A DNA stretch of 64,000 bases, taken from the NCBI GenBank assembly GCA_002162075.1, contig CP021423.1:1116001-1180000 (forward strand). Direction: 5' to 3'. Shown here piece by piece: positions 35,070 to 41,633 of the stretch. Both the position numbers and the translations under genes were made by a program. This DNA comes from Armatimonadetes bacterium Uphvl-Ar1 (GTDB lineage: Bacteria > Armatimonadota > Fimbriimonadia > Fimbriimonadales > Fimbriimonadaceae). A model generated the notes under the pieces. That model made no database searches and had not been told where the DNA came from. It saw nothing but the letters and a program-made list of their open reading frames with translations. Each line of letters opens with the position of its first letter. Positions within the stretch are counted from its first letter, which is position 1.

Positions 35070-36347
35070 TTATGCTGCCTTGAAAAAGCCCGATGGAGTG
35101 GTTGGTACAGCTCTCGATGGGAGGACAAAGCGGGTTTGGTCATTTTTCATTCGACACAAGATCAAATCCGCGAGAACATCTCGATAGTCAATCGTTGGCT
35201 TGAGATCAACACCATCACGCCGATTCTCACTTTCAAGACCTGGCCAGTCAGTTTGGATTCCACCGGTGACATTCGGGCCCATGGTGAGCATACAGCCCGC
35301 CGTGCCATGCTCTGTCCCGCGTGATCCATTCTCTTCAACCTGACGACCGAATTCGCTCATGACCACGAGTGTCCACCGGGTGTCTCCTGATGCTTCCATA
35401 TCAGAATAAAATGCCGCCATACACCGAGCAAGTTCATTCATCATGGACTCAAGGATTCCGCCAACACTTCCCTGATTCGCATGGGTATCCCACCCATACC
35501 AATCGTATTGAATAACCTCGACCCCAATATCACCCTTAATCATTCCCGCCGCATATCGCAACGAGTTTCCAAGACTGGACTGTGGATATTGCAGGTGGCC
35601 ACTTGACTGGTAGTCAGTTAAATTAAGCGGGTTGATTACATCAGAAGCTCTTTTGGCATCTCTTACAATCGCGCGCGATTCGTCCTTTACTCGGCTATAC
35701 ATTCGAACAATCGTGTTGGCGATCTCTTCATCATCGCTAAATCCTCCGCTCATTGTGTAAGCGGAGGGATCCGTTACAGAAACTATTTGTTGACCTTTCC
35801 GCATGGAAACGGGAGTGCTTTCGCCAAAGAATAGACCTCTGAAAGGAGGATTAGCTTTGCTGCTAAGAGTACTAGCCAAGTGTCTGGATACCCAACCGCC
35901 AGCTGATTCTGAATCTGCAACCGCTTGAAGAAAATGTTGCTCCTCAAAATGTGATCGGCTAGAATTTTCCCGACCAACTGCGTGAATAACCCCCAGATTT
36001 CCGTCATTAAATGCTTCCATCAATGGAAGAAAGGCTTTTGGAAAACCGAAGTAACCGTTCAGGTCAATGGCACCGTTGCTTCCTTGACCGGGTTTTGGAA
36101 TCGCAATCGTAGGTCTTACTTGGTAGTAAATCGGGTCACCATGCGGACAACAGAATGAGAGTGCGTCGGCACCACCTTGGAGGTGGATTACAATCACAGC
36201 ATCACGAATTGATGTACCTTGGGCAAATGAAATTCTGGGAGCAATGAGGGGAATGGCGACGGATGAAGCAAGGAGTGCACCTTGACCTAGTAGCTTTCTT
36301 CGGGAAAGTTGTTGGTACTCATTACATGAATTTTCTGTCATTGTCAT
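35070..36347 (-). CDS. DUF1501 protein, Tat-exported
   Basis: The protein of 425 residues starts with a twin-arginine signal (LSRRKLLGQGALLASSVAIPL) and contains DUF1501 sulfatase-like blocks (VIVIHLQGGADALS, DWYGWDTHANQG, VVMSEFGRQVEENGSRGTEH). DUF1501 proteins are nearly always paired with DUF1800, as here, and their function is not established. It follows DUF1800 by 10 bases in one operon. Confidence 0.9.
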   Translation of the reverse strand: MTMTENSCNEYQQLSRRKLLGQGALLASSVAIPLIAPRISFAQGTSIRDAVIVIHLQGGADALSFCCPHGDPIYYQVRPTIAIPKPGQGSNGAIDLNGYFGFPKAFLPLMEAFNDGNLGVIHAVGRENSSRSHFEEQHFLQAVADSESAGGWVSRHLASTLSSKANPPFRGLFFGESTPVSMRKGQQIVSVTDPSAYTMSGGFSDDEEIANTIVRMYSRVKDESRAIVRDAKRASDVINPLNLTDYQSSGHLQYPQSSLGNSLRYAAGMIKGDIGVEVIQYDWYGWDTHANQGSVGGILESMMNELARCMAAFYSDMEASGDTRWTLVVMSEFGRQVEENGSRGTEHGTAGCMLTMGPNVTGGIQTDWPGLESENRRDGVDLKPTIDYRDVLADLILCRMKNDQTRFVLPSRAVPTTPSGFFKAA

Positions 36348-36357
36348 CTCACTTGTT

Positions 36358-37944
36358 TCAGAACCATTGATACGACGGCGAGCACAGTGCGATCGAAAGT
36401 GCTTCCATGGGACGGTTTCCTCTCTTTAAATATCGGCGAATGAATATCTGATCCGATACTGGTAATTCTCCCAGGAAAAAGTCGGCATTAATTGAAGCGA
36501 CCTTTTCGGCATCGGATAATGGAGACAGTTTTGCTTGAACAGCACTCGGCGAAAATCCAACCCATCCTCTACACATGCGTGAGATGACAAAGAACCGGTT
36601 GATTGTTCCGCCCGACCAGAAACTGAATCCATGAGCAAATCCGTCCGGCTGAATATGCTTTTCATGGGTGTGTTTCACCACCTTGAGGTATCCGTTGACG
36701 TGTTCAAAATTTAAGGCATTGGCTCCAAATTGACGGAATACTCCTGCAACGAGGTGATACGGACGCTTGTAGATTGGATTGCTTTTCATGATTTCCGTCT
36801 CATCCAGAATCTCCCTGAGAATTGCTTTAATGTCTCCGTCGCTCCCCCATACTTGAGCCACTCGGGAAATCAAACTTGAACTTGCACGACGACCCAAAAA
36901 CCATTCGGACAGCTTATGTGTGACATGAATGATCGTACTCGGATGATTTGCTAGGAAGTTCAAAACCTCTTCCCCTTGACTTTGACCAGTCTGGTTAAAA
37001 GTTCTCCCCATAACAGTCCTACTACCTGGGCTTTTCAAATTCGGATCGAACCGAAACTTCTGATAGTCAGGGCTTCCTGGTTCTTCTTCAGTAACTCCCC
37101 AACCTGTCAAAATTTCGGCCAACTCGTAGATATCTGCTTCTGCATACCCTCCTTCAACTCCAACGGTGTGTAATTCAAGGAGTTCTCTAGCATAGTTGAT
37201 ATTGGTTTGGCCCATTCGAGACGACGCGTTGTCAAGATAAACCATCATGGCTCCGTGCTCTGCAACAGCAAAAAGCAATGATTTGAATGTGCTCATAGAA
37301 TTTGGCCAAATACTCGTGCGGGCAAAATCCGCCCAAGCTGCTGAAGTAACTGAACCCCCTGCCCAGACATAAAAGTGATCCATCCAAAATTCGGTCATAC
37401 GTTGGTAGAGGACTCGCTTGGAAAGACCTGCGCGGAAGATCATTGCCGCCTGCGCTTGTGTAAATGGATGCCAGGGAACGCCAGCGAATTGATTGAGTTG
37501 CTCAACAGTTAAAGAAAGGAGCGGATATTGGGATTGAATCATTGCTTCACAGGCAGAGTCATCAATTTGCTCGTAGTTGATTTGCTTATCAAGATAACTT
37601 GCATATCCAAGGGCATTTATTTCAGCAACATCGGCAGCGGTTGGACCATAAGATATTTTCCTAAGTAGCTTCTTCTTTGAATCAGCCCAGCTGCGACCAA
37701 AAGTTGACCCACCAGTTGCACCGCCCGAACCACCTGACTCGATAGCATTGAATCCGCCATTCCCAGGAGGCCGATTTCCAAATCGTCCCGGGGCCATCCG
37801 ATTCTGCGCGCTGGCCAATTCGGCAGCTGCACCAAGGGCCATGGTCAATCCACCCGCCAGCAATCCTCTGCGCGAGGTCGCGGTTTGGGTCATTGCTTCC
37901 AGAATCTCGTCGGGTCGTTTTTCGTCATTCAGCCGGGTCAACAT
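36358..37944 (-). CDS. DUF1800 protein, Tat-exported
   Basis: A twin-arginine signal (TSRRGLLAGGLTMALGAAAE) precedes a Gly-rich linker and a 450-residue DUF1800 domain with helical blocks (RMTEFWMDHFYVW, INYARELLELHTVGVEGGYAEADI, VMGRTFNQTGQSQGEEVL). Length is 528. It is the first gene of the DUF1800-DUF1501 pair common in Planctomycetes, Armatimonadota and others. The role is unknown; export and co-occurrence are the only clues. Confidence 0.9.
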   Translation of the reverse strand: MLTRLNDEKRPDEILEAMTQTATSRRGLLAGGLTMALGAAAELASAQNRMAPGRFGNRPPGNGGFNAIESGGSGGATGGSTFGRSWADSKKKLLRKISYGPTAADVAEINALGYASYLDKQINYEQIDDSACEAMIQSQYPLLSLTVEQLNQFAGVPWHPFTQAQAAMIFRAGLSKRVLYQRMTEFWMDHFYVWAGGSVTSAAWADFARTSIWPNSMSTFKSLLFAVAEHGAMMVYLDNASSRMGQTNINYARELLELHTVGVEGGYAEADIYELAEILTGWGVTEEEPGSPDYQKFRFDPNLKSPGSRTVMGRTFNQTGQSQGEEVLNFLANHPSTIIHVTHKLSEWFLGRRASSSLISRVAQVWGSDGDIKAILREILDETEIMKSNPIYKRPYHLVAGVFRQFGANALNFEHVNGYLKVVKHTHEKHIQPDGFAHGFSFWSGGTINRFFVISRMCRGWVGFSPSAVQAKLSPLSDAEKVASINADFFLGELPVSDQIFIRRYLKRGNRPMEALSIALCSPSYQWF

Positions 37945-39607: not shown

Positions 39608-40798
39608 TTAGGGCCATGAGTCTCGCTTGCTCGTGAGTGGGTTCAAGTATTCCGTCCAAAAATAACTCTGTTGCGGCGGAACTGACAGGGCGATTTCATC
39701 ATCAACCGTTTGAAAGGCCATTTTGATTGGATATTTGCCTTCCGGCGCACCGTTGGTATTCGCATGATCACCCCATGCATAACCTTGGGCATAAGCAATA
39801 AACGAAACTCCCGGACGCGACATCAACTCGCCTTTTGAATTCAAGGAAATCGTTCCTTCGATCATCCCGGCAATTCCTTTCTCCGTTCCATCACGACCTT
39901 CCAAATTCGTCATTCTAAACAAACCATGGAACTGGTATTCATCCTTGGATACTCGTGTGACCTGAATGTCTAAGGTGCGAATATTGTCAAATCGCCACCG
40001 ATTGGGTTCCCCTCGCACATTATCAACCAAGTGGAAACGGGCTAGTCTCCGAGCCAGCTTGGCTGGCAATGGGAAGGTCGTCAGTGGGTTCGATTGAATC
40101 GCCTGAATGTCTTCAGGGAAAATCCAAAAATGATCTCGGCCAATACTTCGGTTCTTCTCCGGTGCGTCTTCTGGTAATGGCAAAATCCTCGAGATCGAAC
40201 GCACTACTGTTGTGCCTGCTGGTCGCTCTCGACTCCATGACCTGGGTGAGGTCAGGGGTTCATGCTTTGCCTCGGGCGGACTATTCTTAAACGCTTCAAG
40301 TCCTTCATCAAGTAGCTTCATAAACTCGTCACGTTGGCGACCGTGCATGCTGAATTTGTATGCCTGCCCATCTGCTCCAACAACGTAAAACCCTTGACCT
40401 GTGACCCCTTTCGTCACTCCGGGATGGACTTTTTCTGCTGTGCTCAGGAACCAACTCCTTTCGGGCGACTCCCACTTACTCACTTGGAGTTCATTGGTGT
40501 TCCCCGCGAACGGGATGAATTCTGATTTGAGACGCTGAATAACGTCGGGGCGAGTGAACAAGTCACGCTTGTCCGCTTGACCATTGTTTCACGTACAGCC
40601 TGTCGGGTGACCGTTCATCATCCACATGAAAATTGGCTTGTTCTGGCGATAGGCTTCCCGCCGCGCTTCAAAAAGATCAAGATGCCACCCAACTTCCATC
40701 CACTTTTCTTCTTCGGGCAGGGGCCACAGGGCACTCACTTGCTCCGATAGAGTCAACGGGCTTCCCAGAGTCGCAAAAAGGGCCAACATTGGCAACAT
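39608..40798 (-). CDS. Exported thioredoxin-like protein with in-frame TGA (candidate selenoprotein)
   Basis: Reading from ATG 40798, the frame has a signal peptide (MLPMLALFATLGSPL), a thioredoxin-fold-like start (FEARREAYRQNKPIFMWMMN), then GHPTGCT, a TGA at 40591-40589, and NNGQADKRDLFTRPDVIQRL in the same frame to residue 396. The TGA is codon 70, two after Cys68, giving a Cys-Thr-Sec redox motif. Both sides form one protein and neither is complete alone. Alternatives are a Cys (TGC/TGT) to TGA mutation or a base error; an indel is excluded because the frame is unchanged. The C-terminal 300 residues are unrecognised. No Sec synthesis genes are in this window. Confidence 0.72.
40557..40591 (-). 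promoter_or_regulatory. Candidate bacterial SECIS element
   Basis: The 32 bases directly after the TGA (40588 down to 40557) fold into one hairpin: AACAA pairs with TTGTT, a 2-base bulge (TG) follows, GTCA pairs with TGAC, then an A-G mismatch and GC/GC close a six-base apical loop GGACAA. A G at the start of the apical loop about 15-16 bases from the UGA is the main feature of bacterial SECIS elements. Confidence 0.6.
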
Positions 40799-40811: not shown

Positions 40812-41633
40812 TCAAATCACATCTAAAATTGTGCGAACTCCACGACAGGATCGAATAATTTCATCCATATCTGACCGCCACTCAAAGTTCTCGCCGAATC
40901 CACCATATTCAATCGCTACAATTTCTGGCCTCGCCGCATGTCCATGCCTGATTGCTGCCGCAACAAACGCTGTGCATTCCCAATCATCGTCGGTCATGGG
41001 CAATGAATCATAAAGTAATTCACCACCTGGCTTCAATCCGACTCCTGTGATGTGCCATTCGCGGAGAGCATGGAGCGGGAACCGCATCAGCTCTTCCCGA
41101 AAATCAAGTACATTTTCAATGCAAGTAATCTTCAAATGAGCCGAGTCGAGCAACAGTCCACAGCCAGTTTCGGAAACAACCTGGCAAAAGAACTCACCAA
41201 GCGTACTGACTCTTTCAGTTTCACATGCATCTGCCCGGGCAACCGAATTCTCGATGATCACTTTTTCAATACCGAATCTATCCGCTAACTCCAAAATTGC
41301 CTTTCGGCAACAGTCTATGTATTGATCAACCGAACAATTATTGCCAAACCACTCTTCCCGAAAAACAATGTGCAGATTTGCAAACTCGCTCTCGCATTCG
41401 TCGAAAAGTCTCCCGATCCAATCCCACTTTGGCTCCGGGTGGTCGAAATTTATGACACCTGCTGGGCCAACCCCTAGCGGGAAATGGACGTAATAGGGAC
41501 CCGAAACCGCCGTTTCCGCAATCCATTCTTCAGCAAGGCCCGTTTTGAGCAAATCCACCGGGATTCTGCCCTTCTCTCTAGCTAAGATCGCTTGAGGACT
41601 GGCATTGATAGCTAGTTTCAACCAATGCTCCAA
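40812..41633 (-). CDS. DUF692/MNIO-like TIM-barrel protein
   Basis: The 273-residue protein has barrel strands with likely metal ligands: YYVHFPLGVG, NLHIVFREEW, VIIENSVARADA, GLLLDSAHLKI, LREWHITGVGL and VAIEYGGFGENF. The order EN, LLLD, eWHI resembles the DUF692 (multinuclear non-heme iron oxidase) family, some of which modify cysteines in RiPP precursors. DUF692 has LLLDvnN where this has LLLDSAH, so a xylose-isomerase-like relative is an alternative. It is between a PLP enzyme and the TGA-containing gene. Confidence 0.6.
   Translation of the reverse strand: MEHWLKLAINASPQAILAREKGRIPVDLLKTGLAEEWIAETAVSGPYYVHFPLGVGPAGVINFDHPEPKWDWIGRLFDECESEFANLHIVFREEWFGNNCSVDQYIDCCRKAILELADRFGIEKVIIENSVARADACETERVSTLGEFFCQVVSETGCGLLLDSAHLKITCIENVLDFREELMRFPLHALREWHITGVGLKPGGELLYDSLPMTDDDWECTAFVAAAIRHGHAARPEIVAIEYGGFGENFEWRSDMDEIIRSCRGVRTILDVI

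Follow-up and report, generated by a model that had tools for sequence, protein, structure and literature searches.

A probable selenoprotein with a predicted thioredoxin-like fold, from a family absent from the catalogue and libraries searched, in an Armatimonadota genome

We wanted to know whether a TGA lying inside a gene of Armatimonadetes bacterium Uphvl-Ar1 is a true stop or a codon for selenocysteine (Sec). The gene is found in a stretch of 64,000 nucleotides (contig CP021423.1, positions 1,116,001 to 1,180,000), hereafter the window, and positions are counted from its first letter. The elements of the gene and its upstream neighbor are as follows:

39608-40798, minus strand: candidate selenoprotein gene of 396 residues, interrupted by a single TGA, ATG at 40798, homologues collinear over the full length
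39608-39610, minus strand: stop codon TAA of this gene
40589-40591, minus strand: in-frame TGA, codon 70, probably read as Sec, as judged from TGA in relatives and the Sec machinery
40595-40597, minus strand: Cys68, at -2 from Sec (CxU), the column having been read in relatives
40812-41633, minus strand: upstream gene, a member of the MbnB/TglH/ChrH (MNIO, PF05114) family, in the same direction; 13 bases separate its end from the ATG of the candidate gene

A sequence-only reading of this locus had proposed that the frame is continuous across the TGA and that a Cys two residues before it forms a CxU motif. Both points were confirmed, as Cys68-Thr69 immediately precede the TGA and this codon is the sole in-frame stop between 40798 and 39608. 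Annotation with the standard code would retain only a downstream ORF of 317 aa with a TTG start. When the gene was compared with its 95%-identical relative (PNMZ01 BC.035), dN/dS was about 0.046 upstream and about 0.040 downstream of the TGA. These low values, a sign of equal purifying selection on both sides, together with the full-length alignments of the relatives, indicate that the two halves behave as one gene. A lone in-frame stop is also what a fresh pseudogene looks like, and a nonsense mutation or a miscall in an ordinary gene could have produced it. Contrarily to what this would predict, dN/dS stays low downstream of the TGA, the same TGA occurs in 114 distinct relatives across phyla, and neither TAA nor TAG was ever found at the site among the relatives collected. 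Moreover, the independent assembly of the nearest relative contains the identical TGA, which speaks against the concern that resequencing might reveal a sense codon. We thus give a pseudogene or a sequencing error practically no weight.

We then looked at the residue found at the Sec site in homologues. Over all distinct relatives collected, the column contained 114 TGA, 6 Cys, 2 Ser and 2 Asp, and never Trp; this is the alignment of UGA with Cys or UGA expected of a bacterial selenoprotein, Ser and Asp being restricted to four diverged copies, two of which come from genomes without detectable selA, selB or tRNA-Sec. In one Cys-bearing relative (L185), the Cys in the Sec column opens a classical CTNC motif. 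Cys68 is less constant than Sec70: Cys is present at -2 in 103 of the 114 distinct TGA-bearing relatives, the others being of the GHCU, GTTU, GSTU or GMTU types. Relatives were present in 25 of 61 close genomes, with TGA at the same site in nearly all. We also scanned 84,980 species genomes with a search pattern that ended at the Cys position, before the TGA codon. Of the 222 stretches matched, 204 encode relatives, and TGA was at the site in each of the 80 named loci fetched from these 204. According to record titles, from which single metagenome bins may be misassigned, these loci belong to Armatimonadota, Planctomycetota, Latescibacterota, Poribacteria, Gemmatimonadota, Marinimicrobia, Kiritimatiellia, Chloroflexi, Bacillota bins and others. 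The viral contigs searched contained no relative. The host genome itself encodes two further paralogues with TGA at the site (L045 and L046, G000:C1:1794304 and 1877901), making three copies, and the paralogue motifs in this genome are MNGHPLGCT-U-NNGVRGRQLVW and YFGDPRGHC-U-QNGAKTRQFVW. In the second paralogue, L046, the order is His-Cys-Sec in place of Cys-Thr-Sec.

Insertion of Sec in a bacterium calls for SelA, SelB, SelD and tRNA-Sec, and the host genome, a single contig of 2.99 Mb, encodes all of them. The tRNA-Sec scored 73.9 bits (Rfam gathering score 47) with anticodon UCA (ARAGORN), selA 430 bits (cut-off 268), selB 352 bits (cut-off 242) and selD 348 bits (cut-off 125), so the search advised by the earlier reading returned a complete machinery. 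The selD gene (L043, G000:C1:2772333-2773256) has an in-frame TGA of its own, in a CAG-U-ASK context, and is itself a selenoprotein gene. At the scale of the phylum, we compared 291 genomes of Armatimonadota, a relative being counted when TGA-bearing at E<1e-30 and the lists being counted by hand. The selA gene was over the cut-off in 42 of 47 genomes with a TGA-bearing relative versus 96 of 244 others (Fisher p 1.2e-10; the genomes are related and the counts are not phylogenetically independent). Among the five TGA-bearing genomes without selA, three had selB over the cut-off, two of those also having tRNA-Sec; G087 and G054, which had neither selA nor selB over the cut-offs, are incomplete (78% and 73%). 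Two nearly complete genomes, G170 and G031, lacked selA and had neither selB nor tRNA-Sec over the cut-offs, and their full-length relatives carry Ser and Asp. The case of G152 (87% complete, no selA, Ser at the site) is ambiguous, with a selB-like gene below the cut-off and a tRNA-Sec match just over it. In G012, the Sec machinery is present, yet a diverged copy has Asp at the site.

Readthrough of the UGA by a near-cognate tRNA, such as that for Trp, or a code in which UGA means Trp, would give a full-length protein without selenium and would likewise conserve both the UGA and the coding sequence downstream. This is very improbable in view of the complete Sec machinery, which in the phylum goes together with TGA-bearing genes, of the relatives that have Cys and never Trp at the site, and of a SECIS-like hairpin with a loop G, described below. 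In addition, the gene directly upstream terminates normally at a TGA, indicating that TGA is a stop elsewhere. We also looked at the RNA that follows the UGA, where two hairpins can be drawn:

40556-40574, minus strand: probable bacterial SECIS hairpin, 7-bp stem GGACAAG/CUUGUUC, loop CGUGA (40567-40563), conserved in relatives
40557-40588, minus strand: hairpin of the sequence-only reading, loop GGACAA, overlapping the CGUGA hairpin and less conserved

The hairpin put forward earlier does exist: 35 nt counted from the UGA form 11 pairs around loop GGACAA (folding energy -9.1 kcal/mol; z -1.98 relative to dinucleotide shuffles), a folding score that is unremarkable when taken alone. When a slightly longer sequence was folded, the CGUGA-loop hairpin, which has bases in common with the first, became the minimum; its stem joins nt 18-24 to nt 30-36 counted from the U of UGA (40574-40568 and 40562-40556). 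In each of nine close relatives all 7 pairs are kept, and one pair has changed on both sides (A-U to G-C), whereas the GGACAA hairpin is incompletely paired (5/9 to 8/9) in five of these relatives. The SECIS is thus more likely the CGUGA-loop hairpin than the GGACAA-loop one. Over the family, we used 79 non-redundant sequences and compared each with recodings keeping the protein sequence. The 39-nt stretch from 6 nt past the start of the UGA codon folded better than these synonymous recodings, with a mean z of -0.81 (se 0.10, n 79), versus -0.32 to +0.10 for six later segments in the same 79 genes. The best simple hairpin had a G among the first two loop bases in 79 of 79 sequences against 60% in the recoded null, these sequences being related and not phylogenetically independent. 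For the gene in the window alone the hairpin score is borderline (p 0.05); the hairpin soon after the UGA with G in the first two apical-loop bases, typical of bacterial selenoproteins, is a family-wide signal exceeding that of synonymous recodings. A CGUGN loop lies 22 nt into the element in many members and at nt 25, one codon later, in the close relatives of the window gene. This shift of the loop by one codon without amino-acid indels argues that the RNA itself is under selection.

The encoded protein was modeled with AlphaFold on an alignment of 51 sequences (mean pLDDT 90.8). It is divided as follows:

40751-40798, minus strand: residues 1-16, a hydrophobic N-terminus that may be a short signal peptide, from sequence only, with low model confidence at residues 1-4
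40277-40705, minus strand: predicted thioredoxin-fold domain, residues 32-174 (AlphaFold and VIA-align)
39701-40219, minus strand: predicted C-terminal antiparallel beta-barrel domain, residues 194-366, conserved

Aligned with VIA-align, residues 32-174 matched 3f9u (Z 13.6), ERp18 1sen (12.3), AGR3 (12.0), DsbH (10.7) and DsbD-gamma (9.6). Foldseek with the model gave no match at E<=0.001, and the fold assignment therefore stands on the VIA-align Z-scores and on sequence hints. The predicted topology, with a nucleophile where the first helix starts, is that of a thioredoxin fold (from AlphaFold and VIA-align, Foldseek alone not being significant). Sec70 lies directly before helix 71-80, with U-N-N-G where CxxC is expected. 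This location at the helix start, together with the column shared with the first Cys of CTNC in L185, indicates that Sec holds the nucleophile position. The thioredoxin-like fold claimed earlier is supported by structure prediction. Gly occupies the second CxxC position in 51 of 51 aligned sequences and replaces the resolving Cys; the two redox residues in CxxC spacing that define a classical thiol-disulfide oxidoreductase do not appear in UNNG. Sec70, Asn72, Gly73, Gln135 and Gly136 are invariant in the same alignment and were not imposed by the search pattern, of which the invariance of W59 to G67 is partly a product. The short hydrophobic N-terminus suggests that the protein is exported. 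Folded alone, the C-terminal domain reached a pLDDT of 91.3, and its best structural matches are small beta-barrels (Z 6.6), with no clear solved relative among them; as such a Z is within the range of common arrangements, we place this domain in no family.

The missing resolving Cys leads to another view of a real selenoprotein, in which Sec would serve as in glutathione peroxidase, or in another single-Sec peroxidase, rather than in a thiol-disulfide oxidoreductase. Thioredoxins carry a cis-Pro at the start of the strand that here spans residues 136-140, and this Pro seems to be replaced by the invariant Gln135-Gly136, a placement deduced from secondary structure. Structures of GPX are among the weaker VIA-align matches (Z 5.8), and the folds of DsbH, ERp18, AGR and DsbD-gamma match much better (Z 9.6-13.6). 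We keep a peroxidase of this kind as a possible but doubtful reading. Alternatively, Sec could bind a metal or a ligand and take no part in redox catalysis: Cys-Thr-Sec and the attached barrel could form a binding site, and the MNIO family of the neighboring gene handles iron and Cys chemistry. The location of Sec at the thioredoxin nucleophile position argues for catalysis instead, and the MNIO-family gene is adjacent in only some members of the genus, making a binding role improbable.

The MNIO-family gene adjoins the selenoprotein gene in 4 of 6 genus members compared, and the two are probably co-transcribed. Synteny around the selenoprotein gene is confined to the genus, and our neighborhood comparison found no gene recurring beside the family across phyla; for these reasons, an operon role for the MNIO-family neighbor was not adopted. 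Downstream of the selenoprotein gene, DUF1501 and DUF1800 genes lie next to each other (window 35070-37944, minus strand) and are conserved in the genus. Two other in-frame TGA codons were seen in other genomes. One is in a Thioredoxin_7-like gene (L183, G044:C10:5374-5781; DEFC-U-TNARTLR) whose relatives have Cys there (EEMACANARTLR); these apparently make a second, separate Sec/Cys pair. The other, in a short thioredoxin-like frame (L184, G118:C87:24983-25279), has an NPG-U-GGCQT context and is possibly a further selenoprotein.

Altogether, the analysis shows a conserved recoding site, the Sec machinery, an RNA structure signal and a predicted fold, best explained by a true selenoprotein whose family lies outside the libraries searched, with two domains, probably exported, having Sec at the nucleophile position and its UGA decoded by the host Sec system through the CGUGA hairpin; we give this reading a probability of about 0.87. 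The earlier proposal is supported, with its choice of SECIS hairpin revised, the genome having Sec machinery, the TGA recurring in a second assembly and homologues having TGA or Cys at the site. Sec insertion, export, enzymatic activity and substrate are inferred. UGA codon 70 would be translated as Sec by the host SelA, SelB, SelD and tRNA-Sec, under the direction of the CGUGA-loop hairpin beginning 14 nt after the UGA. In the N-terminal thioredoxin-fold domain, of the Thioredoxin_7/DsbH/ERp18 type, Sec at the N-terminal start of the active-site helix would act as the nucleophile. The most likely mechanism would be a thiol/selenol redox cycle, in which a disulfide or a peroxide is attacked by Sec; either Cys68, through a selenenylsulfide, or an external thiol would then resolve the intermediate. 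Counting against a firm assignment of this resolving step are the loss of the second Cys of CxxC and the variation of Cys68 among relatives. A role in binding a substrate or a partner is possible for the C-terminal barrel.

With more than 200 relatives in a one-genome-per-species collection, from several phyla of poorly cultured bacteria, and Sec in nearly every copy read, the family would extend the known selenoproteome. Standard annotation would truncate such genes at the UGA and lose the active site. The family also offers a way of testing directly why Sec, rather than Cys, is kept at this site. As a broader and tentative proposal, to which we give well under even odds, it might be a widespread selenoprotein family, so far uncatalogued, that has split into several paralogous branches (of GCTU and GHCU types). 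Its members would use Sec, hardly ever Cys, in a thioredoxin fold that lacks the resolving Cys and has Gln-Gly for cis-Pro, and their active site would be that of a new kind of selenoperoxidase or reductase, joined to a barrel that binds a ligand.

The sequence-only reading had also foreseen a new or little-described family member. The family is new in the sense of being absent from the 2026 catalogue (PMC13188914) and from Pfam and NCBIfam, whose models do not reach it. The catalogue covers prokaryotic selenoproteins in 119 families or subfamilies (PMC13188914), and its table has no entry with the present motif; a literature search on selenoproteins in Armatimonadota yielded no description of the family either. 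Sequence searches of Pfam, NCBIfam and PDB gave no match for the window protein. The VPGUxxT thioredoxin-like (seleno)proteins (NF041382 / NF041383) match weakly over the thioredoxin part of some relatives, with best E-values of 4e-6 (Cys member L027) and 5e-4 (L022). These relatives score 13-27 bits where the cut-offs are 275 and 350 and so, like the unmatched window protein, stay outside those families; the motif here is GCT-U-NNG, not VPGUxxT, and the C-terminal domain is unmatched. The Trx7/PDZ (seleno)proteins (NF041199), of catalogue motif CxxU (PMC13188914), have a Thioredoxin_7-type N-terminal stretch that weakly matches two Cys-bearing relatives (E 1e-3 and 0.03). The best relative has 18 bits against a cut-off of 300 and the window protein is unmatched, so neither belongs there; no PDZ domain was found in the present family, which has CxU/UxxG. 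The TsoC motif (NEPxGxxU, NF045708), similar by eye, was ruled out by the lack of any match in the NCBIfam scan. The thioredoxin-like selenoprotein Sec.1 has a CxU arrangement (PMC13188914), which both share, although no family member tested had a Pfam match to its domain PF13192. For Thioredoxin_7 (PF13899), the window protein is unmatched and two Cys relatives have 14 bits, below the gathering threshold of 27. In predicted fold, residues 32-174 are nonetheless alike to Thioredoxin_7, DsbH, ERp18, AGR and DsbD-gamma (Z 9.6-13.6), from which the present family differs by Sec for Cys, Gly for the second Cys, an extra Cys at -2 and an added C-terminal barrel.
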